Source: Dehalogenimonas sp. 4OHTPN (GTDB lineage Bacteria; Chloroflexota; Dehalococcoidia; Dehalococcoidales; Dehalococcoidaceae). From it: DNA of 64,000 nt. Below are positions 24,677 through 38,539 of the stretch, one piece after another. The position numbers were made by a program, and so were the translations under genes. The notes below the pieces were generated by a model that was not told the DNA's origin, did not search any database, and worked only from the letters and a program-made list of their open reading frames with translations. The stretch is from assembly GCF_040448695.1 (NCBI RefSeq), contig NZ_CP159307.1, positions 1,302,001 through 1,366,000 of the forward strand. Reading direction: 5' to 3'. Each line of letters begins with the position of its first letter. Positions within the stretch are counted from its first letter, which is position 1.

Positions 24677-26095
24677 TTAACGGGTGGTTTTTAGGTCGTG
24701 AGCCTTTTCTGCCTGGTGGGCGAAGGTTGTCGCCGCATCGGTGATATCGACATCCTTGGTTTCTCGAACGTAGATCATACCGACGACGAAGCACACAGCA
24801 GCCACAGCCATAGGCCACCACAGCCCAGCGAAGTTATTACCGGTAGCGTTAATCATCGCCAGGCCAAAGATCGGAACAAGGCCGCCGAAGACACCGTTCC
24901 CAATGTGGTATGGTAATGACATCGATGTATAGCGAATCTTAGTTGGGAAAAGTTCGACCAAGAAGGCAGCAATTGGCCCGTAAACCATTGTGACATATAC
25001 CACCTGAATGAAAACCAGGAAGGTCAACGCCACCTGATTGTAACCGACATAGTCGAACAGGAAATACTGCCCTGGGTCTGTCGGTGCAAAAGCTGCCATG
25101 GCACCATAAATAGGATAGTAGGTCAAAACCGCCAGCAACATCCCGGCAAGCATGATTTTTTTACGGCCGATGCGATCAGACAACCAGCCGAAGAAGACGA
25201 ATAATGGGGTTGCCATAAGTACGGCGGCGCCGACGATAAAGTTAGAATCTACCAAGTCAACGCTAAAAATCTTCTGGAGATAGAAAAGGGCATAAAACTG
25301 CCCGGTGTACCAGACGACACCTTGACCCATAGTTGCGCCGAACAAGGCAATCAGTACCCATTTGCGGTTGAACTTGTTGCCAAAACTTTCTTTCAGCGGA
25401 TTCTTAGAAACCGTTTTGGTTGCTTTCATTTGAGTGAAGAGCGGGGATTCTTTTAGGGAGCGCCTGATCCACATAGACAGGAACACCAGGACAACAGACA
25501 TCAAAAACGGGATGCGCCAGCCCCAGGCGCTGAAATCTTCAGAACCGAGAATCGTCCGGGTAGCTAAAATTACTCCCAGGGACATGAAGAGGCCGAGAGT
25601 AGCGGTGGTTTGGATCCATGAGGTATAAAAGCCGCGCTTCCCTTGGGGAGCATGTTCAGCAACAAAGGTTGCTGCACCGCCATACTGGCCGCCAAGAGCT
25701 AAACCCTGAAGCATACGAAGGCTAATAAGGATAATGCCGCCGGCGATAGGACCTATTACATCCTTAGTAGGAAGCAAGCCAACGCCCATGGTTGCGCCAG
25801 CCATAATGCTGATAGTAAGAATATACGTAAATTTTCGGCCGACGAGATCACCTATTCGGCCAAAAAAGATGGCGCCGAAAGGCCGGACCATGAAACCGAT
25901 GGCGAAAGTGGACAGCCAGGCGATAAGGTTGCCGATATCAGACCCGGTGTCATAAAACTTGTTGGCCAGGGTGGTTGCGAGGCTGCCAAAGATGTAGAAG
26001 TCATACCATTCGATTACTGTGCCAGCAGATGATGCGAAAATTACCTTTCGGATGCTCTGCACGGTGTCAGAAGCGGCTTGTGCTAAGCTTGCCAT
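24677..26095 (-). CDS. MHS-family major facilitator (module 1)
   Basis: A 472-residue 12-helix symporter of the metabolite:H+ symporter group (ProP/KgtP/ShiA-like). It has the MHS-type opening 'SSAGTVIEWYDFYIFGSLA', the loop motif 'FFGRIGDLVGRKFTY', 'GLALGGQYGGAATFVAEH' and 'GWLSDRIGRKKIMLAG', and ends with 'VRETKDVDITDA'. Substrates in this group are organic acids, osmolytes or shikimate; none can be assigned here. It follows a universal stress protein gene on the same strand and is strongly similar to the second transporter at 27446-28885, so the pair arose by duplication. Confidence 0.92.
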   Translation of the reverse strand: MASLAQAASDTVQSIRKVIFASSAGTVIEWYDFYIFGSLATTLANKFYDTGSDIGNLIAWLSTFAIGFMVRPFGAIFFGRIGDLVGRKFTYILTISIMAGATMGVGLLPTKDVIGPIAGGIILISLRMLQGLALGGQYGGAATFVAEHAPQGKRGFYTSWIQTTATLGLFMSLGVILATRTILGSEDFSAWGWRIPFLMSVVLVFLSMWIRRSLKESPLFTQMKATKTVSKNPLKESFGNKFNRKWVLIALFGATMGQGVVWYTGQFYALFYLQKIFSVDLVDSNFIVGAAVLMATPLFVFFGWLSDRIGRKKIMLAGMLLAVLTYYPIYGAMAAFAPTDPGQYFLFDYVGYNQVALTFLVFIQVVYVTMVYGPIAAFLVELFPTKIRYTSMSLPYHIGNGVFGGLVPIFGLAMINATGNNFAGLWWPMAVAAVCFVVGMIYVRETKDVDITDAATTFAHQAEKAHDLKTTR

Positions 26096-26151
26096 ATTCC
26101 CCCTTCAAAAATATTTGTGTATTTTGCGGTGCTACAGTTTTCGCGTAATGA

Positions 26152-26592
26152 CTAGGAATCTCCAGCTCGAATCATCATCACGGGCACTTTGGAATGTCGG
26201 ACCACGCGTTCGGCGACAGACCCGATCAACCAGCTGGCTGGCCAGTTACGGCCGTGCGTGGACATAGCGATGATATCAACTTTTAGCTCTTCGGCAATCT
26301 TCAGAATGGTGGTGGCAGGACCACCCTCTCGAAGGTGGCAGGATACTTTAAAGCCTGAAGCCCGGAGCTCGTCACAGATTTTGGTCATGTACTTGTTTGC
26401 TGCTTTCTCGTCTTCTGCGACTGTATAGCCAGCTATAGCCGGGTCTTCAAAAGCGAATTCCTGGGCGGGATTAGCAGCCACATTCAAAAGGGCAATTTCG
26501 GCCCCTTCTGAATATGCCAGTGCTTTGGCATGAGGCAAAACGCCTTCGGCTGTTTTGGATCCGTCAAGAGGGACTAATATTTTTTTATACAT
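26152..26592 (-). CDS. Universal stress protein (module 1)
   Basis: A 146-residue Usp domain: 'MYKKILVPLDGSKTAEGVLPHA', given here by its conserved LDGS motif, then 'IAMSTHGRNWPASWLIGSVAERVV' with the ATP-binding glycine region and a terminal 'VPVMMIRA'. It is nearly identical in layout to the Usp at 28936-29373. It lies 56 bases before the transporter gene, and the fixed pairing of Usp and MHS transporter suggests that the stress protein regulates or reports on transport; this is an inference. Confidence 0.9.
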   Translation of the reverse strand: MYKKILVPLDGSKTAEGVLPHAKALAYSEGAEIALLNVAANPAQEFAFEDPAIAGYTVAEDEKAANKYMTKICDELRASGFKVSCHLREGGPATTILKIAEELKVDIIAMSTHGRNWPASWLIGSVAERVVRHSKVPVMMIRAGDS

Positions 26593-27445: not shown

Positions 27446-28885
27446 TTACTCTTTTACAGGTGAACCACTGAGAGCTGCCTTAGCCTTCTCACCGGCTACC
27501 TGTCCCATCATGGAGATAGAGGTTGAAGCATCGGTGATGTCAACATCTTTGGTCTCTTTAACGAACAGCATGCCGACAACAAAACATATAGAGGCCACGC
27601 CCATCGGCCACCAGAGGCCGGCGAAGTTATTGCCAGTTGAGTTGATCAAGGCCAGGCCGAAGATCGGGACCAGTCCACCGAACACGCCGTTGCCGATATG
27701 GTATGGCAGCGACATTGAGGTATAGCGTATCTTGGTCGGGAACAACTCGACCAGGAAAGCGGCGATAGGTCCGTAAACCATGGTCACATAAATGACCTGA
27801 ATGAAGATCAAAGCCATCAGAGCAGGCATATTGTAACCAATGTAGTCGAACAGGAAATACTGGCCGGGATCGGTCGGAGCGAAGGCGGCCATCAGCCCGT
27901 AGATGGGATAGTAGGTCACAACCGCCAGGAACATACCTGCCATCATGATCTTTTTGCGGCCGATCTTGTCGGACAGCCACCCGAAGAAGATGAAGAACGG
28001 GGTAGCAAGCAGCAGCGCGACGCCTATGATGACATTAGAGTCGACAAGCGTCACTCCGAAAATCTTCTGCAGGTAGAAAAGCGCGTAGAACTGACCGGTG
28101 TACCAGACTACGCCCTGGCCCATGGTGGCGCCGAATAAAGCCAGAGCCACCCATTTCAGGTTGTAAGGATTGGCAAAGCTTTCTTTCAGCGGGTTCTTGG
28201 AAACGGTTTTGGTATCCTTGAGTTTCTGGAACAGCGGAGATTCGCGCAAAGACAACCGTATCCAGATAGAGATGGCGATCAGGAAGATGGAAACCAGAAA
28301 CGGTACCCGCCAGCCCCAGGCGCCGAAATCTTCGGTGCCGACAATGAGGCGAGTGGCCAGGATAACGCCCAGGGACAAGAACAAACCGAGGGTGGCTGTC
28401 GTCTGGATCCACGAGGTGTAAAAGCCTCGTTTGCCGGGGGGAGTGTGTTCAGCGATGTACGTTGCGGCGCCGCCGTACTCGCCGCCAAGAGCCAGACCCT
28501 GCAGAATGCGAAGGGTGATAAGAATGATGCCGGCGAAATCGCCAAGGGTTTCACGGGTTGGCAGCAGGCCGACGGCGAAAGTGGCCAAGCCCATGATGGA
28601 CATCGTAACAAGGAAGGTGAATTTCCGGCCGATCAGGTCACCGATGCGTCCGAAGAACACAGCGCCGAACGGGCGGACAATGAAGCCGATGGCAAAGGTG
28701 GCGAGCCAGGCGATGATGTCGCCAACTTCGGTGCCGGTATTATAGAATTTGCCGGAGATTGTAGTTGCCAACGAGCCGAAGATGTAAAAGTCGTACCATT
28801 CGATCATGGTACCTGAGGACGAGGCAAAGATGACTTTCTTCAAGCTTTGAGCGCCGTTTTTAGCGGTATCAACTATGCTTGCCAT
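27446..28885 (-). CDS. MHS-family major facilitator (module 2)
   Basis: A 479-residue paralogue of the transporter at 24677-26095, with the same helices and loops: 'SSSGTMIEWYDFYIFGSLA', 'FFGRIGDLIGRKFTF', 'GLALGGEYGGAATYIAEH' and 'GWLSDKIGRKKIMMAG'. A notable exchange is Q to E in the 'GGxYGGAA' motif (Gln in module 1, Glu here), inside a helix that lines the substrate path in related proteins. The C-terminus is longer (about eight residues). Substrate unknown. It follows its Usp partner by 50 bases. Confidence 0.92.
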   Translation of the reverse strand: MASIVDTAKNGAQSLKKVIFASSSGTMIEWYDFYIFGSLATTISGKFYNTGTEVGDIIAWLATFAIGFIVRPFGAVFFGRIGDLIGRKFTFLVTMSIMGLATFAVGLLPTRETLGDFAGIILITLRILQGLALGGEYGGAATYIAEHTPPGKRGFYTSWIQTTATLGLFLSLGVILATRLIVGTEDFGAWGWRVPFLVSIFLIAISIWIRLSLRESPLFQKLKDTKTVSKNPLKESFANPYNLKWVALALFGATMGQGVVWYTGQFYALFYLQKIFGVTLVDSNVIIGVALLLATPFFIFFGWLSDKIGRKKIMMAGMFLAVVTYYPIYGLMAAFAPTDPGQYFLFDYIGYNMPALMALIFIQVIYVTMVYGPIAAFLVELFPTKIRYTSMSLPYHIGNGVFGGLVPIFGLALINSTGNNFAGLWWPMGVASICFVVGMLFVKETKDVDITDASTSISMMGQVAGEKAKAALSGSPVKE

Positions 28886-28935
28886 GAAACCTCCCTTCTC
28901 CTAATTCAATACTGATTGGTGCCGGGTATCTTGGA

Positions 28936-29373
28936 TTATTCAATTGCCCGGATCATCATGACCGGGATTTTGGAATGACGGACCACGCGTTCGGCCACGC
29001 TGCCTATCAGCCAGCTGGCCGGCCAACCGCGTCCATGGGTTGACATAGCGATGACATCGGCTTTAAGTTCTTCTGCCATCTTCAGAATGGTGGTTGCAGG
29101 TCCGCCTTCCCTCAGGTGACAGGTAACTTTAAACCCGGCGGTTTTTAGCTCATCACAGACTTTGGTCATGTATTTGTTGGCGCTTTTTTCACCCTCGGCG
29201 ACGGTGTAGCCGGCGATTGCCGGATCCTCGAAGGCAAACTCTTGAGCGGGATTTGCTGCAACATTCAGCAAAGCGATTTCAGCTCCTTCGGCATAAGCAA
29301 GCGCTTTTGCATGAGGCAGCACGCCTTCAGCGGTCTTGGATCCGTCGAGCGGAACCAAAATTCTTTTGTACAT
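28936..29373 (-). CDS. Universal stress protein (module 2)
   Basis: A 145-residue Usp domain opening 'MYKRILVPLDGSKTAEG' and closing with 'GRGWPASWLIGSVAERVVRHSKIPVMMIRA', described by its ATP-binding glycines and GSVAE motif. ATG 29373 is chosen because GGGGAAGG lies directly upstream and its paralogue starts at the same residue; the frame could extend to 29472 without support. Over nearly its full length it matches the module 1 Usp. Promoter at 29522-29551. Confidence 0.9.
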   Translation of the reverse strand: MYKRILVPLDGSKTAEGVLPHAKALAYAEGAEIALLNVAANPAQEFAFEDPAIAGYTVAEGEKSANKYMTKVCDELKTAGFKVTCHLREGGPATTILKMAEELKADVIAMSTHGRGWPASWLIGSVAERVVRHSKIPVMMIRAIE

Positions 29374-29521
29374 CCTTCCCCACCTTTCGGTATTTATTAC
29401 TGGATTACGGGTTGAAGCTTGTTTCTCAAGTTCGAGAGAGGTGAGATGCCATTTCTGGCTGGAATATCCCAATTTGTCGACCTTTGAAGGCTCCTAACCC
29501 TCTGCAAACTGGAATGCGGAT

Positions 29522-30693: not shown

Positions 30694-32037
30694 CTAGCCC
30701 CCGAGCAGGTACAAAACAAGGTCGCCGACATTGGTCCCGGTATCACCTGTCATTAACAGCGAATTCCCCAGGCGCTTAAATGCGGAATGACTATCAAAGC
30801 TTTCGGTGAATTCCGTTAGATTGAGACCGAGGCGATTTGCCTGTTCCTGGGTGTTGGAATCAGCCATGGCACCGGCGACATCCGGCATGAAGTCAGAACC
30901 ATCCGTACCGACAGATGCCACCAGCCACTCGCCGGGGATGGTTCTCAATTCCTGGAGAGCGACAAGCGCGTAGTGCTGGTTCCGGCCGCCGGCGCCGGCG
31001 GTTAACGGTACCACCGGCGCTGTTTCGCCGCCAAAAACAACGGTATTAAACTCATGATGCTTGCCACCAATGATATCGGCTACAGCCAGGCGCGCAGCGG
31101 AGGCAGTTTCCCCGGAAATATATGAAGGCGAAATCCAAACCCGGCGCCCAAGTTCCTTAGCGCGCGCTTTCATAGCCGCCAGAGCCAGTTGATTATCGGC
31201 AATTATAAAGTTACGGCAATTCGGGAGGGATTTTGGAGTATCTGGCACACCTCCATCCCTGCCCTTCATAAGGTGGTTTATCACCTTCGGCGGTATCCGC
31301 GCAACCAATTTGTGCCTGGAGATTACACCCAAAGCATCATCGAAAGTGGACGTATCCGCCGCCGTCAAACCAGAGGCTATAATGGACGGATCGTTGTCTG
31401 AAACGTCTGAAATTATCAGCGAAACCACTTGGGCGGGAAAAAAATGCCGCCCCAGGTTGCCGCCTTTGATCTTTGAGAGGTGTTTTCTTACGACATTGAT
31501 TTCAGCGATGTCCGCCCCGGACTTAATCAGAATATCGACAGCTTGTTGTTTATCAGACAGGCTTATTTCTGAAGCAGGGCTGGACAGCAAAGCCGAACCG
31601 CCGCCTGAAATCAGGCAAACCACCAGATCTTCGCCGTTGATATTGAACCTGTCTCTGAAGCCTGGAATACGTCCAGCGGCCTGAACGCTGCGTTCATCGG
31701 GTATCGGATGCCCGGTATTGACTACTTCAACGAGACGTGTCGGATAGTTACCGCTTTTGCCGGCTACCAGACCCGCGCGAATATGGTCAGGAGAGATGAT
31801 TTTTTCCAGAGAGACTGCCAAAGCCCCGGAGGCTTTACCGCCGCCGACAACGAATAGCCGGCCAGGGATTTGGAATCGGTGGCCGAGAATATCAAGCGTC
31901 CGGCTTGACGGATTGAAACTGAGAACCGAGGGCATGACCCGGTCCGGCTGAACGCTCCGGATGCCGGCTTCGATCAAGTCAATGGCAAGCCGCCGCAGAG
32001 GAGACAAACCCAGTTCTTCGCCGTTTTTGATTATCAT
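30694..32037 (-). CDS. Glycerate 2-kinase (MOFRL family)
   Basis: About 447 residues of the DUF4147/MOFRL glycerate kinase family, phosphorylating D-glycerate to 2-phosphoglycerate. Visible motifs: 'LFVVGGGKASGALAVSLE', 'GHPIPDERSVQAA', 'LVVCLISGGGSALL' and the MOFRL signature 'GGETAPVVPLTAGAGGRNQ' near residue 370, followed by 'VGTDGSDFMPDVAGA'. ATG 32037 is chosen: GAGG lies eight bases upstream, whereas TTG 32067 has no ribosome site and overlaps a TATAAT (32061-32056) that may be its own promoter. It enters central metabolism from serine/glycerate. It follows the binding-protein gene on the same strand. Confidence 0.88.
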   Translation of the reverse strand: MIIKNGEELGLSPLRRLAIDLIEAGIRSVQPDRVMPSVLSFNPSSRTLDILGHRFQIPGRLFVVGGGKASGALAVSLEKIISPDHIRAGLVAGKSGNYPTRLVEVVNTGHPIPDERSVQAAGRIPGFRDRFNINGEDLVVCLISGGGSALLSSPASEISLSDKQQAVDILIKSGADIAEINVVRKHLSKIKGGNLGRHFFPAQVVSLIISDVSDNDPSIIASGLTAADTSTFDDALGVISRHKLVARIPPKVINHLMKGRDGGVPDTPKSLPNCRNFIIADNQLALAAMKARAKELGRRVWISPSYISGETASAARLAVADIIGGKHHEFNTVVFGGETAPVVPLTAGAGGRNQHYALVALQELRTIPGEWLVASVGTDGSDFMPDVAGAMADSNTQEQANRLGLNLTEFTESFDSHSAFKRLGNSLLMTGDTGTNVGDLVLYLLGG

Positions 32038-32107
32038 CGGTTTCGCCTCAGGCAGGATTATAATCAAGGGGTGGAGCTTTGATACCTTGTGAGATTGGAT
32101 GGGGATA

Positions 32108-33043
32108 TTACGGGCCCAGGTTGGGGAAAAATAGTCTTAGATACCCGCCGAGCATAACCATGTCCTGACCCTGCTCGGATAGGCAGAAATCGATGAATTC
32201 TTTCACTAATCCAACCGGCTGGCCGTCTGTATAGTAATAAAGGGGGCGGTAGATGGGGAAGATTCCAGCCGAGGTGGTTTCCAAACAGGCTTTTGATGGC
32301 TCTTTACCGGCGGTGCGGGCAATCCAGGTCGGCGTCACTTCCTGAGTGACTATGTTGACCGGCGTGAAAAAAACGGCGAACGGGTTTTCAGCCACCAGGT
32401 CGTTGCCTTCTTCGGCCGACCTGACGAAGATTACATTTGATCCGAATTCGATGGTTTCATCCGCCGAAGGCAAGCCGTACAGCCGCAATACCTTCGCCTT
32501 AAAGAAATCATAAGCCGGGGTGCCAGGCGGCATGGCGTAAACGACTATAGGCTCGTCCAGCCCGCCAAGTTCCTTCCAGTTGACGATTCGGCCGCTGTAA
32601 ATGCCGGATACCTGCTCCAGCGTCATCAACTCCACCGGATTCCATGGCCAGCGGATAACCGATAGCGCGTCCGAAGCAATTCGGATGCGATTTGATTCGA
32701 TCCCGGACGCCGTTTCGGCACCGGCCGGTCCCAACCGCGGCATTGACTGGTATATCGCAGCGCCGCGGGACAAAGCGTCAATGCCGGAGGAAGCGTCCTC
32801 TACGACCGTTATAACCACCCCGGGATGCAGCTTCATGAATTCGGCCGCCCAAACCCGAGACAAGGGCGCCACCAGCGGGTCGCCGCTAATGGTAAAGGAG
32901 CCGGTAAGGTCACTGGATTGGTCAATATGTGGGGCGTCACCGGCGCCGGAATTATTGGAAGGGAGAAACGCCAGGATCATCAATGCCGCAGCCGGTATTA
33001 TCAGCGGCAGCAAATATTTTTTACTGCTGAACTGCTTCATCAC
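32108..33043 (-). CDS. PstS-like periplasmic binding protein coupled to rdhA1
   Basis: A 311-residue extracytoplasmic substrate-binding protein. An N-terminal hydrophobic segment (about residues 10-28) without a lipobox Cys acts as signal or anchor. The mature part has the PstS-like pattern 'GSFTISGDPLVAPLSRVWAAEF', 'SSGIDAL', 'ALSVIRWPWNP' and 'LEQVSGIYSGRIVNWKELGG'. In true PstS the first loop (T-G-S-S/T) binds phosphate; here it reads T-I-S-G-D, so the ligand may differ. No ABC permease or ATPase is adjacent. Its GTG ATG start overlaps the rdhA1 stop (33040-33043), so both are made from one message. A role in dehalogenase maturation, substrate capture or anchoring is an inference. Confidence 0.78.
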   Translation of the reverse strand: MMKQFSSKKYLLPLIIPAAALMILAFLPSNNSGAGDAPHIDQSSDLTGSFTISGDPLVAPLSRVWAAEFMKLHPGVVITVVEDASSGIDALSRGAAIYQSMPRLGPAGAETASGIESNRIRIASDALSVIRWPWNPVELMTLEQVSGIYSGRIVNWKELGGLDEPIVVYAMPPGTPAYDFFKAKVLRLYGLPSADETIEFGSNVIFVRSAEEGNDLVAENPFAVFFTPVNIVTQEVTPTWIARTAGKEPSKACLETTSAGIFPIYRPLYYYTDGQPVGLVKEFIDFCLSEQGQDMVMLGGYLRLFFPNLGP

Positions 33044-34440
33044 CAGTCTTTAACCCCAAATCCTTTCAACTCGTCGTAAGGCCACTTGGAAAGATCCCTC
33101 TGCCACCAGCCTTCACGTTCAGCGTCGCTTTTCTGCCACCCGTAACCGAAAGCCCGGTCCATGCCGGCAAAGAAACCATTTAGCGCCGGTGTCACTGCCG
33201 AAGCTGCTCTCACCAGGTTATGAATAGAAGCATCCGGAGGATGGTTGAAGGGGCAGGTCATCTGGCAGTTCGAACAGTCATGCGGCCCGCCCCACTCGGC
33301 ACACTTCTGCCAGTGCTGATGAAAGCCTTTAAAGCCGCCGCGGTTCCATTGGCCCGCAACTTCCCATGAGGTGTCATCGTCCAGCGATAGGGCGCCCGGC
33401 GGGCATACCTCGGCGCAACGTTTGCAGGACTTGCAGAATTCAGTCACACCGGCATCAATCGGCCGGGTCGGCTGGAGCGGCAGGTCGGTTATCGCCCAAT
33501 CAATGTAACGGATGGACAGGCCGTAATCCGGCGAGCAGCAGTAAGCGGTACGTCCCTGCTCCGCCAGTCCCGAGAACAGGCCGAAAGGCACATTAGCCCG
33601 CACTTCCGGCTGCAGCGCCAGGTACCCGAGACCGTGCAGGAAACCAGTGACATTCCAGCGTATCTGAGGAGCGTGCGAATACGAAGCGTTGCGCGAGGCC
33701 TGACCAAGTTCAAAGGTTTTGTTGCGGTCAGGCCCGGAATCATCCGTTCTCAAAGCATACTTTGACTGGGGGTAATTCTGCTTGGCAATCCAGGTGAGAA
33801 TCCAGCGGCAGCGGCTGGGAATATGGTACACACCGGCGGAATCAATATAAGCAGCCGGGATATCTTCCCAGATGGTCGTACCGAGGTCGAACAGTCGCCT
33901 GGTATGCTCATTCACCTCAATAGCTCCGACCCGGGGGGCGCCGTAAAAATGTGCCGCCGCCCTCATCATCTGTAGATTGTCTTCCGGAGTCCCCTGCCAG
34001 GCCGGCAGACCGCGGTCGACCGGAGACGCGGTGCGGATATTGCCCTGCCAGCCGAGATGCTGCATATTAAAGTTGTCATAGGTGGCTTCATCCAGGGCGA
34101 TGTCCCGGAGCGTGCCGCCAGGAGTGTTATTGGCAACGTCTCGAATATGCCGGGCGCTGCGTTCGTCAGCCTGCCTTTTCACCAGTGAAAGCGGCAGCAT
34201 GTATAGCTTCCGGGTATCGTAAGGCTTGAACAGATCCCAATCTACAGGCGTGGTCAGGTCTTCAAAATCCCGGTCTTTCTGCCACCACTTGCGGTAGTGG
34301 TGGGTGTCTACCCCAGCGGCGAGTTCATCCAGGTCATGAACCAGCGGACTTCCAGCCGCGGCCAGCGACATACCGGCTCCGGCCAGGCCGAGACCTTTCA
34401 TGAAATCACGCCTCGAGAGGTTTGAATGGAATTTGCTCAT
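33040..34440 (-). CDS. rdhA: Reductive dehalogenase catalytic subunit (rdhA1)
   Basis: A 466-residue corrinoid and iron-sulfur reductive dehalogenase, terminal reductase of organohalide respiration at the outer face of the membrane. It carries a Tat signal 'SRRDFMKGLGLAG' at residues 9-21. The two [4Fe-4S] motifs are Cys336-339-342-346 (C-x2-C-x2-C-x3-C) and Cys380, 389, 392, 396. 'WDLFKPYD', 'WQGTPEDNLQMMRAAAHFYGA' and 'TDLPLQPTRPIDAG' are recurrent RdhA segments. Substrate cannot be predicted. No rdhB is adjacent; instead a PstS-like gene is coupled to it. It has its own promoter (34494-34522), separate from rdhA2 by a hairpin. No strong Shine-Dalgarno sequence is seen before ATG 34440. Confidence 0.95.
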   Translation of the reverse strand: MSKFHSNLSRRDFMKGLGLAGAGMSLAAAGSPLVHDLDELAAGVDTHHYRKWWQKDRDFEDLTTPVDWDLFKPYDTRKLYMLPLSLVKRQADERSARHIRDVANNTPGGTLRDIALDEATYDNFNMQHLGWQGNIRTASPVDRGLPAWQGTPEDNLQMMRAAAHFYGAPRVGAIEVNEHTRRLFDLGTTIWEDIPAAYIDSAGVYHIPSRCRWILTWIAKQNYPQSKYALRTDDSGPDRNKTFELGQASRNASYSHAPQIRWNVTGFLHGLGYLALQPEVRANVPFGLFSGLAEQGRTAYCCSPDYGLSIRYIDWAITDLPLQPTRPIDAGVTEFCKSCKRCAEVCPPGALSLDDDTSWEVAGQWNRGGFKGFHQHWQKCAEWGGPHDCSNCQMTCPFNHPPDASIHNLVRAASAVTPALNGFFAGMDRAFGYGWQKSDAEREGWWQRDLSKWPYDELKGFGVKDW

Positions 34441-34493: not shown

Positions 34494-34528
34494 ATTATGT
34501 AATATAAACGTTCGGCGGTCAATCCGCC
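34494..34528 (-). promoter_or_regulatory. Promoter of rdhA1 with dyad over -35
   Basis: On the minus strand TTGACC (34522-34517), 17-base spacer, CATAAT (34499-34494). The dyad GGCGG-tcaat-CCGCC (34514-34528) covers the -35 box and may be an operator. The predicted leader is about 47 bases. Confidence 0.7.
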
Positions 34529-34583
34529 ATCATGCTTAGTTTCCATTAGGATAAGATTACCTTCCGAGTGAACTTTGTTTGTA

Positions 34584-34615
34584 GAATAGAGGCGGGCTTA
34601 CGCCCGCCTCTATTC
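34584..34615 (-). terminator. Hairpin after rdhA2
   Basis: GAATAGAGGCGGGC (34584-34597) pairs perfectly with 34602-34615 around TTAC, 37 bases after the rdhA2 stop. No long T-run follows, so it may attenuate or protect rdhA2 mRNA rather than stop all transcription into rdhA1. Confidence 0.75.
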
Positions 34616-34651
34616 TTGTTTTCCGGGCTGGATGCTCCAGCTTGGAAAAGC

Positions 34652-36166
34652 TTATTTCCGGTAGCCGCCGTCGAAAGAGGTGACGGTCGAGTCCATGCCG
34701 AAGACCGGGAAGGAGCGATCCCACCATTCCTCAGCCTTGGGGGATCCACCCTCATGGGTGCCGGCACCATATTCGAATACCTCGCCCATGCGGAAGAAGA
34801 AGTTGTTGAGCGGGCCGAACTTAAGGTTGGAGATGGTGCCGCGGATGAGTTCGTGCACCATGGCGCCCTTGTTGGTGGTGAAGGTGCAGTTGCCCCAGCA
34901 GACGTTGCAGCCGTCAAGCTCGGTGCGCACCATACGGCAGGCGGCACCGTCAGACCAGAACTCCTTGGTGCCCTTGTTGTGCATGATGTTGGGCTTGCCG
35001 TTGATGTCCGGGATCTCCCAGGTCGGCTCTTTGGCGAAGGAGATACACTCGGCCGGGCAGGCGCGAGCGCACTTGCCGCAGTCGGCACAGAACTTGAACA
35101 TGCCGGCATCGATAGGATGGGTCGGCGCGACCGGGATATCGGTGATGTAGGAGTGGATGCGGCCGATGGGACCCAGCTCAGGGGTCAGGCTGTAGACGTT
35201 GTTGCGGGACGATTCAGCCACGCCGGTTAGGTTAGCCACAGCGGCTTCGATGAACGGATAGTTGGAGTCGCCGCCGTCGCCGATCATCTGGTAGCCCATG
35301 TAGCGCAGGAAGTTGTAGACAGAGGGTTTCAGCGCGGTGGCTACAAAGTCCGAGCCGTTGAAACGGCCGCCCATGGCCGGTGCGGCGCGGGACATCTCGT
35401 GGGACATGTGCTCCCAGTGTACCAAGTGGTACATCTGATTCTTGCCGGGGACGGCGAGGGCGGTTGAAGTCTCATAGGCGGTATCAACAGTATTGTCGAT
35501 GATGAACTTCTTCGCGGCGTTGTGCTTGACGTTAGTGCACAGCAGTTTCTCGCGGTCCAGTTCGGTGAATTCGCCGTAGCCGGAGATGGCGGCGCCGACG
35601 TACTTCTGGTAGGCGTTCAGCATGTGGCTGTTCTCTTCCGGGGTGCCGTTCCACTTGGGCTCGCCGCGGTCGGCGGGGGTGGCAACACCCTTGTAGACCG
35701 CGCCGCCGCCCTTGGTCCAGGTGCCGCTGGTGGAAGCGCCGGCCCAGGACTTGCTGACATAGGCGGACCAGGAGGTGGTCACAGCGGTCTTCAATGCCTG
35801 GCCGCGGTAAGTGTAACCGGGAGCCTGAGCCGCAATCTTAGCCTTGGCATACTCGGCGCCCTTAGCGGAAGCGGCATCAGCGCGGGCCTGCCCGTGATAG
35901 TAAGCCCACATTTCGGTCTGCTGCCCGGTATTGGTCGGGTTAACCCGCTTCATGACATCCCAGTCAACTTCAGTGGTCGGGTTGTGGGCTTCGCGCTCTT
36001 TGACCCACCAGGGGCGCTTCTGCATGACAGCGCCGGCGGAAATGAGTTCATCGACATCATGGAAGGCCGGGTTGACGGCCGCCATGGCGCCGACGCCGCC
36101 GGTCACCATCGCCATGACTTTCATGAACTCTCTGCGGCTGACGGTACTGTGAAACTTGTTCGACAC
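34652..36166 (-). CDS. rdhA: Reductive dehalogenase catalytic subunit (rdhA2)
   Basis: A 504-residue RdhA. The Tat signal is 'SRREFMKVMAMVTGG' (residues 10-24). First cluster Cys360-363-366-370, second Cys410, 420, 423 and 427. The last Cys is followed by Thr where Pro is usual. Family segments include 'WWVKEREAHNPTTEVDWDVM', 'WNGTPEENSHMLNAYQKYVGA' and 'TDIPVAPTHPIDAG'. An Ala/Ser/Gly/Trp-rich stretch at about residues 125-165 is unusual. Codon choice is strikingly uniform (mostly C- or G-ending), as in very highly expressed genes, unlike rdhA1. Start is GTG with AAGGAG about eight bases upstream. Tandem repeats occupy its leader (36186-36225). No rdhB follows; a hairpin does. Confidence 0.95.
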   Translation of the reverse strand: MSNKFHSTVSRREFMKVMAMVTGGVGAMAAVNPAFHDVDELISAGAVMQKRPWWVKEREAHNPTTEVDWDVMKRVNPTNTGQQTEMWAYYHGQARADAASAKGAEYAKAKIAAQAPGYTYRGQALKTAVTTSWSAYVSKSWAGASTSGTWTKGGGAVYKGVATPADRGEPKWNGTPEENSHMLNAYQKYVGAAISGYGEFTELDREKLLCTNVKHNAAKKFIIDNTVDTAYETSTALAVPGKNQMYHLVHWEHMSHEMSRAAPAMGGRFNGSDFVATALKPSVYNFLRYMGYQMIGDGGDSNYPFIEAAVANLTGVAESSRNNVYSLTPELGPIGRIHSYITDIPVAPTHPIDAGMFKFCADCGKCARACPAECISFAKEPTWEIPDINGKPNIMHNKGTKEFWSDGAACRMVRTELDGCNVCWGNCTFTTNKGAMVHELIRGTISNLKFGPLNNFFFRMGEVFEYGAGTHEGGSPKAEEWWDRSFPVFGMDSTVTSFDGGYRK

Positions 36167-36293: not shown

Positions 36294-36872
36294 TTAATCA
36301 GTATTGCCCAGGCCGACGCCGGTGCCGTCCAGGCCGTTGGCGCCGGTGGCTACCGGGTCGCCGATATTGGCTGAATGCAGCCGGGGGTAGCAGCTGAAAG
36401 TCACGTTCATGTGGGCGTTTTCAATGACCACCATACCGCTTTCATCCAGCCCGGCGACGATACCTCTGGCTTCAACCGTATCGGTCACCGCCAGGTACTG
36501 GAAGAATTCATCGCCGTTGGCCAGTTCGACCTTGATCTTTTCGGCCAGCGCCACAAACGGCGAGGCGATCTTGGCGGTTACTACCGTTCGGCGGACGAAA
36601 ACTTCCTGACCGACATACTGCTGCCAGTTGGCGATCAGTTCGGCGTCGGTGACATCCACCCAGGTGATTTCCTCGACGATGGGCGTATCGTTGCCGCCCA
36701 GTTTGCCCCCGGTGGCGCCCGAGCCGAGGTCGACGGTGAAACCGTCACAGCCGGTCAGGGCGACCAGCATGGCCAGCCCGGCGATGCCCGTAGTCAACAG
36801 CGCCGGCTTGCCGCGGCGGCGCGGTTTGGCGGCGTCAACGCTCACCAGTTCCGCCCCAAGATAGTTACACAT
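36294..36872 (-). CDS. Predicted lipoprotein with OB-like domain, upstream of rdhA2
   Basis: A 192-residue protein. A positively charged start (Arg/Lys to about residue 22) leads into a hydrophobic segment and the lipobox 'LVALTGC' near residue 41, so it should be a lipid-anchored outer-face protein. A Gly-rich linker is followed by a beta-rich region ('GQEVFVRRTVVTAKIA', 'EFFQYLAVTDTVEARGIVAG', 'MVVIENAHM') that reads like an OB fold. No close family is recognised. A GGAGG lies about 12 bases before ATG 36872, further than usual. It stands between the radical SAM gene and rdhA2, so a function in the dehalogenase system is likely but unproven. Confidence 0.6.
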   Translation of the reverse strand: MCNYLGAELVSVDAAKPRRRGKPALLTTGIAGLAMLVALTGCDGFTVDLGSGATGGKLGGNDTPIVEEITWVDVTDAELIANWQQYVGQEVFVRRTVVTAKIASPFVALAEKIKVELANGDEFFQYLAVTDTVEARGIVAGLDESGMVVIENAHMNVTFSCYPRLHSANIGDPVATGANGLDGTGVGLGNTD

Positions 36873-36943: not shown

Positions 36944-38413
36944 TCAGGTCTCTTTAGGAGTCAGTTTCGGGATGATCCTTTTTTTCCCCGGATTACGGCC
37001 GATGACCCGCTGGAATTTAACCAGCCAGGATTCGCGGCCATTGGCGGAGTCGAACAGAGCGTTCAGGTAGTTCTTGATAAGATAGGAAAGCGAGCCGAAA
37101 AATTGCCCCGGTTCCCGTATCGCCGTGATAAAATAGGCCGGGTTATGCCGCAGCATGAAACGGAAGCGGCGGGTGGCGAATGTGGCGCGGAAACTGGCCA
37201 GGGCGTCATCCATCATCTTGACCGGGACCTGCGACAGGTTGGCAGCGGTGGCATAATGAAGCTGGAAAGTGGACCAGCCTGCAAGCCTTTCGGGGACGCT
37301 GACCAGTTTTTCCGCCACGCAGCGATCAAATAGCACCGTCTTGGGATAGGGCACAAACTTCATGAACAGATACGGCGGGTTATCCAACCGTTTTATAAAA
37401 TTGAGGGTTTCCTGGAAATCCGCGGCCGTTTCCGTCGGGAAGCCGTATTGAATGAAGAGCGTCGGGATAATCCGCTGGCGGACCAGGTTCCAGAAGGTCT
37501 TCTCAAATTCCTGCACGTTGCCCTTGGTCAGCAGGTCAAGGATCTTCTGGCTGCCGCTTTCGGCGCCGAGGATAACAGCGGTGCAGCCCGCCCTGGCCAT
37601 CAATTTGGCTGTCTCTTCGTCAATCGTGCCGGAGATCTGGCAGTTCCACTTGAGTCTTAGTTTCTTGCCTATCATAATCCGGCAGAATTTGTGGAGCCGC
37701 TCCCGATTGATGCCGAAGTTGTCCCCGGTATACATCAGATAGTTGACGCCGGACTCTTTATGTATCCTTTCTGATTGGGCGGCGATGCGCTCGGCGGAAA
37801 GGTCAGCCACGTTGCCTTTATAGAAGCTGGCGTCGGCGCAGAAGGTGCAGGTATACGGGCAGCCGCGCGAGGTAATGATGGAGACATCCCAGTATTTTTT
37901 AGGATCGACAAGGTGCCAGGCCGGGTCGGGAAGCTCATCGAGAGCTTTGAGAAACGGGCGGGGTTCATTAATAACGATATCCTGGCCGTTCTTCCAGGCC
38001 AGACCTTTAATTTCCGATAACTGGCCTTCACCGTTTTCAAGATAGGCCGCCAGTTCAAGCAGGGTGTATTCCCCGGCGCCGATGACAACGTAATCGACAT
38101 ATTCTTCCTGAAGTGTCTGTTCCGGCAGGGCCGACGGGTGTCGGAAGCCCCACACTGTTTTGATGTTGGGGTATACCTTTTTGAACTCCAGGGCTTTCTT
38201 GATTGAGTCCGCGATGCACCCAGTGGAAACGGAGAAACCCACCAGGTCGGGATTAAAATCAGCGAAAGACTCCGCCGTTCGGTCACCCAGATTGGCGTCG
38301 TGCAGCATCACTTTGTGACCGCCCTTTTCCAGGACGGCGGCAATTGATAGCAATTCATCGGGGAACTTGGTGTACATGCCGTCGCGCAAAGGAATGCTCA
38401 GCAGGATTCTCAT
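36944..38413 (-). CDS. B12-binding-type radical SAM protein
   Basis: About 489 residues. An N-terminal Rossmann domain of the cobalamin-binding type ('LLSIPLRDG', 'LHDANLGDRTAESFADFNPDLVGFSVSTG', summarised) is followed by the radical SAM motif 'SRGCPYTCTFC' (C-x3-C-x2-C) near residue 190 and a TIM-barrel. A C-terminal helical extension is rich in Arg/Phe. ATG 38413 is chosen because GAGGT stands five bases upstream; a GTG-like extension reaches 38425. Radical SAM proteins with B12 domains are repeatedly found beside rdhA genes in this group, where their role is unproven. The classic B12 His motif (D-x-H-x-x-G) is not clear here. Confidence 0.82.
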   Translation of the reverse strand: MRILLSIPLRDGMYTKFPDELLSIAAVLEKGGHKVMLHDANLGDRTAESFADFNPDLVGFSVSTGCIADSIKKALEFKKVYPNIKTVWGFRHPSALPEQTLQEEYVDYVVIGAGEYTLLELAAYLENGEGQLSEIKGLAWKNGQDIVINEPRPFLKALDELPDPAWHLVDPKKYWDVSIITSRGCPYTCTFCADASFYKGNVADLSAERIAAQSERIHKESGVNYLMYTGDNFGINRERLHKFCRIMIGKKLRLKWNCQISGTIDEETAKLMARAGCTAVILGAESGSQKILDLLTKGNVQEFEKTFWNLVRQRIIPTLFIQYGFPTETAADFQETLNFIKRLDNPPYLFMKFVPYPKTVLFDRCVAEKLVSVPERLAGWSTFQLHYATAANLSQVPVKMMDDALASFRATFATRRFRFMLRHNPAYFITAIREPGQFFGSLSYLIKNYLNALFDSANGRESWLVKFQRVIGRNPGKKRIIPKLTPKET

Positions 38414-38539
38414 GGCACCTCTCAAGAACGATAGGGGCTCGCTGGATCCGGATATTGTCCCGGTGTTAAGCTGGTATTAACCATCATAATTCTAGTGTTG
38501 TCTTAGTTTAATCCTAATTTAATAAATGGGGTATCCGCC

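Follow-up and report, generated by a model that had tools for sequence, protein, structure and literature searches.

A predicted exported PstS paralogue co-inherited with an rdhB-less reductive dehalogenase in Dehalogenimonas

Here, we analysed a gene pair of Dehalogenimonas sp. 4OHTPN (genome of 1,750,158 bases in one contig), in which the reductive dehalogenase gene rdhA1 (33040..34440, minus strand) is directly followed by pbp (32108..33043, minus strand), a gene for a predicted exported PstS-family paralogue; positions refer to the window, the whole stretch of 64,000 nucleotides that was analysed. With about even confidence, we propose that the two genes form a unit whose second product, PBP, a descendant of PstS that lost the phosphate site, would be an accessory dedicated to RdhA1 outside the cytoplasm. 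The proposal builds on what the sequence shows, namely homology, the joint inheritance of the genes, conservation of a promoter-like site, purifying selection and the loss of canonical phosphate residues. An RdhA partner of this kind is not described in the literature that could be searched, a scope outside which most subscription papers lie and within which a pairing of rdhA with a PstS gene is not mentioned. Most Dehalogenimonas RdhA proteins lack an RdhB (PMC4918011), and both their function and their membrane attachment are unsettled. For one of these enzymes, a co-inherited and apparently co-expressed exported protein would be a concrete candidate subunit. If the proposal is true, it would also clearly exemplify how a transport receptor can lose its original ligand site and yet be retained beside a respiratory enzyme.

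RdhA1 (466 aa) passes the models PF13486 and TIGR02486 (for the latter with 232.2 bits against a cut-off of 160.35). It carries a Tat signal (RRDFMK), two [4Fe-4S] motifs (CX2CX2CX3C and CX8CX2CX3C) as well as Tyr254 and Arg311, which align to the corresponding region of PceA and are kept in the orthologues; from what is known of PceA, we take the aligned Tyr and Arg to be active-site residues. Judged by these features, which it shares with the RdhA/RdhB systems PceAB, DcpAB, TdrAB and CerAB, RdhA1 looks competent. Unlike in these systems, however, there is no adjoining rdhB, and the downstream gene codes for the 311-aa PstS paralogue. The preliminary description of the locus had presumed rdhB to be the usual gene after rdhA, which fails in this genus: a small RdhB-like membrane protein comes next at 3 of the 30 rdhA loci surveyed, and a solute-binding-type protein, like an overlapping downstream gene of the pbp kind, was found after rdhA1 alone. 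RdhB is a protein of about 75–97 aa with two or three membrane helices, and three rdhA ORFs with rdhB are given for IP3-3 in PMC4918011. PBP does not correspond to this picture: it has 311 aa, a PstS fold and only one hydrophobic segment, at the N-terminus. Since most rdhA genes of the genus are without rdhB, PBP need not replace RdhB, and we rejected such a replacement as the default reading. Two rdhB-less Dehalogenimonas genes of the same paper (PMC4918011, Table 5), DEALK_16320 and DGWBC_0119, match the rdhA1 orthologues found here in size and mutual identity (466 aa; 74% to a 474-aa WBC-2 protein). The table gives no cognate rdhB for either of them, and the accessible text makes no mention of the PstS paralogue beside them.

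At the junction of the two genes (...GACTGGTGATGAAG), the TGA stop of rdhA1 lies within the GTGATG start of pbp (33038..33043, minus strand) and overlaps the GTG by 4 bp and the ATG by 1 bp; the protein has 311 aa if translation starts at the GTG and 310 aa if it starts at the ATG (33040). The coordinates given in the preliminary description are exact. The overlap itself is not conserved, however, since the genes are separated by 11 bp in G005 and by 16 bp in G009, and strict translational coupling can be argued only for strain 4OHTPN and the closely related G004. Upstream of rdhA1, we found a promoter-like motif, GGCGGATTGAC-N13-TATTACATAAT (34494..34528, minus strand), whose fixed letters are identical (0 mismatches) in all four genomes carrying the gene pair, with one copy per genome, and which is absent from the 7 other genomes of the family with up to three mismatches allowed; synonymous sites, by comparison, are near saturation between the lineages. 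In the promoter scan, sites were no more frequent than in shuffled sequences, and the case for a promoter therefore rests on conservation; within the coding sequences of rdhA1 and pbp, the scan of the window gave no such site on the minus strand. Between rdhA1 and the preceding rdhA2, a GC-rich hairpin (34583..34616, assigned to neither strand) is terminator-like on the plus strand and lacks a clear T-run on the minus strand; G005 and G009 each have a hairpin at this place too, with a different sequence. RNA families were not found in the 30–40 kb region of the window. The conserved motif suggests that rdhA1 and pbp are a two-gene unit, apparently with its own promoter. On the same strand, a glycerate 2-kinase gene (30694-32067) follows 40 bp 3' of pbp; such a gene also comes next in G004, whereas G005 and G009 do not have it at this place. 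Further along, 24677-26592 and 27446-29472 form a tandem pair, each with a sugar/metabolite transporter gene behind a gene for a universal stress protein.

Judged from sequence comparison and the protein tree, PBP is a paralogue of PstS that arose once and diverged fast. It is homologous to PstS across the whole mature chain and passes PF12849 (PBP_like_2; 70.8 bits against a cut-off of 27), but fails the curated PstS model TIGR02136 (116.9 bits against 206.6). PstS chains in the PDB are its best solved relatives (E 4e-20; 4gd5, 4q8r, 1twy and 4exl are solved relatives), and PstS proteins were also the top matches of a Foldseek search with the predicted structure. This prediction is weak (five alignment rows, pLDDT 61, pTM 0.51) and was used solely to confirm the PstS fold family, so that the cleft residues of PBP are placed by homology only. 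In the tree, the four pbp proteins form one clade (support 100/100; stem length 1.77 changes per column), which falls among PstS proteins at no resolved position. PBP differs from PstS in its replaced phosphate loops, in the missing lipobox and in its location beside an rdhA gene instead of ABC genes: no ABC permease or ATPase gene adjoins pbp, its neighbours being rdhA1 and the glycerate kinase gene, and a pst operon with an ordinary PstS is located elsewhere in the genome, near C1:77 kb. The first characterisation of PBP as a (predicted) exported PstS-like protein without an ABC partner was hence borne out. Catabolic dehalogenases with nearby uptake genes are known, e.g. bhbA with a TRAP-type transporter. 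The rdhA1-pbp pair resembles this type in that a solute-binding protein is encoded near a dehalogenase; however, the binding protein of the bhbA type is part of a transporter, whereas no transporter gene is present here.

For comparison of the ligand loops, we used 26 canonical PstS proteins as reference, in which 87 columns are conserved at a level of at least 90% and 16 of these lie inside four loops (canonical residues 52-54, 79-82, 100-101 and 172-178; residues 55-57, 82-85, 101-102 and 170-177 in PBP). The loop boundaries were drawn from motif positions and not from a PBP structure, and the loops themselves we take, following the PstS literature, to be the phosphate contacts. Not one of the 16 columns within the loops is retained throughout the four paralogues, compared to 37 of 70 columns elsewhere in the chain (lipobox Cys excluded; Fisher p = 4e-5). 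The canonical motifs GSxTV, GPGS, SSR and SRDxxSGT are not conserved in PBP: the two invariant arginines of SSR and SRDxxSGT are changed to Pro and Met, and the SGT motif is lost. The altered ligand loop that had been noticed initially is thus real. In turn, eight residues of PBP are invariant in all four paralogues (L57, D83, M101, P102, R131, Y169, M171 and P172).

The pair is part of a larger block, in which rdhA1 is preceded by rdhA2 (34652..36166, minus strand), coding for a second reductive dehalogenase of 504 aa, and by a gene for a 192-aa predicted exported protein (36294..36872, minus strand) with a hydrophobic segment ending in LTGC and without a Pfam family. In each of the four genomes, this cassette is adjoined by the gene of a B12-binding radical SAM (rSAM) protein (36944..38425, minus strand). 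The order rSAM - 192-aa protein - rdhA2 - rdhA1 - pbp is conserved in 4 of 8 Dehalogenimonas species (G000, i.e. the strain analysed here, G004, G005 and G009), and the pairing of rdhA with a PstS-like gene is therefore not unique to this strain; as G000 and G004 are close (93% in pbp), the carriers represent about three independent lineages. In G006, the site is empty: where G005 has about 5.1 kb with the four genes, G006 has about 220 bp, with the rSAM gene on one side and a small gene of zinc-ribbon-like type on the other. Because G006 keeps the flanks, rSAM included, without the genes between them, the 192-aa protein gene, rdhA2, rdhA1 and pbp occur either all together or not at all at this site.

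The family search returned pbp orthologues with 93% (G004), 63% (G005) and 60% (G009) identity, other matches in the genus being ordinary PstS proteins with 35–37%. RdhA1 orthologues (72–95% identity) occur in exactly the four pbp genomes; the next RdhA in any genome reaches at most 53%, and pbp was not found beside it at the loci inspected. With a profile of the four pbp proteins, no further member was found in 393 sampled genomes of the class or in 156 of the order, the scores falling from E 1e-179 for members to 1e-85 for the next proteins. Candidate relatives elsewhere in the class or order were rejected, as those inspected carry canonical PstS motifs, most of them beside pst genes. A scan of the genome contig collection yielded a single archaeal PstS only, a viral scan yielded three PstS proteins only, which were taken as alignment rows, and the plasmid search gave, among the matches listed, PstS-like proteins only, with less than 32% identity. 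The 192-aa protein is likewise confined to the four carriers and always adjoins rdhA2 where found. G009 has a second copy of its gene (L088 4774-5310) together with rdhA2, without rdhA1 and pbp, beside a divergent response-regulator gene.

But, what could a PstS paralogue without its phosphate site do for a reductive dehalogenase? We suggest that rdhA1 and pbp are inherited within the four-gene cassette, that RdhA1 would be exported in folded form via Tat and that a PstS paralogue arose once and lost the phosphate site to become PBP. PBP would then be exported by its signal peptide, probably be released from the membrane and serve RdhA1 outside the cytoplasm, where it may hold a non-phosphate, neutral or hydrophobic ligand (e.g. 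an organohalide) or bind RdhA1 itself. It is the export route, the accessory role and the ligand or partner of PBP that we infer here. If forced to choose, we would place ligand capture slightly ahead of RdhA1 binding, because the residues that replaced the canonical ones in the cleft are themselves invariant. The most specific version, in which an rdhB-less respiratory RdhA gained its own extracytoplasmic subunit for substrate capture (or halide or product handling) from a former phosphate-binding protein, is put forward tentatively. The initial idea of a new accessory protein is partly supported, in that the pair recurs in four species, is co-inherited, has an apparent promoter of its own and includes a PstS homologue that lost the phosphate site, but its rdhB premise falls away; among the binding partners suggested there (substrate, halide or RdhA itself), the analysis favours no single one. 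Adjacency of rdhA1 and pbp is no proof of a protein interaction, and PBP might instead serve the co-inherited RdhA2 or the 192-aa protein.

The N-terminus of PBP bears on an alternative, in which PBP is a structural partner of RdhA1, i.e. a membrane anchor or stabilising subunit in the functional place of RdhB with the hydrophobic N-terminus uncleaved. The predicted signal peptide (residues 1-34 approximately) has a single hydrophobic stretch of 19 residues with a mean hydropathy of 2.24, strong enough that it could equally remain as a membrane anchor, and the missing rdhB as well as the strict one-to-one co-inheritance of RdhA1 and pbp are in line with such a role; membrane binding of rdhB-less RdhA proteins is treated as an open question in PMC4918011. 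However, Ala34 is invariant in all four proteins and has Ser or Ala at position -3, an (A/S)-x-A pattern of signal peptidase I that argues for cleavage; the lipobox of the canonical Dehalogenimonas PstS is absent, including the Cys found in nearly all canonical PstS. Moreover, an anchor is evidently not required as a linked gene, since most rdhA genes in the genome have neither rdhB nor pbp, and anchoring alone leaves the invariant new ligand-loop residues unexplained. We thus consider a structural partner unlikely and favour the accessory with a released, ligand-holding or RdhA1-binding PBP.

Even less probable is a sensing or signalling role of PBP at the surface, in which it would report a ligand to a regulator rather than help catalysis. 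In G009, a response-regulator gene is located divergently beside the rSAM gene, and in G005 one lies near that gene; another adjoins the additional pair of 192-aa protein and rdhA2 genes in G009. However, there is no such regulator in the window, nor at that position in G004, and the rdh histidine kinases of the genus lack membrane segments (PMC13390414).

It is very unlikely that PBP works in uptake of phosphate or another oxyanion via the chromosomal Pst transporter and is placed beside rdhA1 incidentally. Its clear PstS fold and descent would fit such a role, as would the situation in G009, in which the block including the rSAM gene has another position in the chromosome, no more than about 5 kb from the pst operon. 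However, rdhA1 and pbp stay together at two different chromosomal sites, and G000, G004 and G009 each possess an ordinary PstS plus operon. With the loops lost, including both arginines and SGT, no lipobox, no local ABC partner and a normal pst operon in the host, phosphate transport by PBP is unlikely. The PstS of the G009 operon (L021 8072-11964; L016) is of another type than in the other Dehalogenimonas inspected, which suggests that this operon was replaced; PBP as the replacement PstS was considered and rejected, as G009 has its own PstS of that other type beside the pst genes.

Substitution patterns speak to whether pbp is maintained for its own function. For G000 versus G004, the dN/dS ratio is 0.14 for pbp, 0.075 for rdhA1 and 0.067 for rdhA2, and between the more distant lineages the synonymous sites of pbp and rdhA1 are near saturation, with amino-acid identity kept at 60–62% (pbp) and 72–74% (rdhA1); by these measures, pbp is under purifying selection. 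A passive hitch-hiker, kept merely by riding in an rdh cassette, would fit the presence or absence of the cassette as a block and the horizontal transfer and islands of rdhA genes described in the genus (PMC13390414), but is hardly probable given low dN/dS across lineages with near-saturated synonymous sites, an intact pbp ORF in all four carriers and invariant new cleft residues.

Some observations concern other rdhA genes. RdhA2 has Asp/Phe in the alignment where RdhA1 has Tyr254, and the last letters of its second Fe-S motif are CT, not CP; it is possibly an atypical dehalogenase. One rdhA of G008 (52% to rdhA1) followed by a solute-binding protein was examined as a similar pair and rejected, since the protein is the first of a complete osmoprotectant-type ABC operon lying 129 bp away; this rdhA is located directly 5' of the operon on the same strand (L126 4814-10376). 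In G000, two rdhA genes (C1:1426067-1427581 and 1470084-1471598) have equal score and identity to rdhA2 and flanking ORFs that look identical (L101, L102), apparently as a result of a recent duplication.
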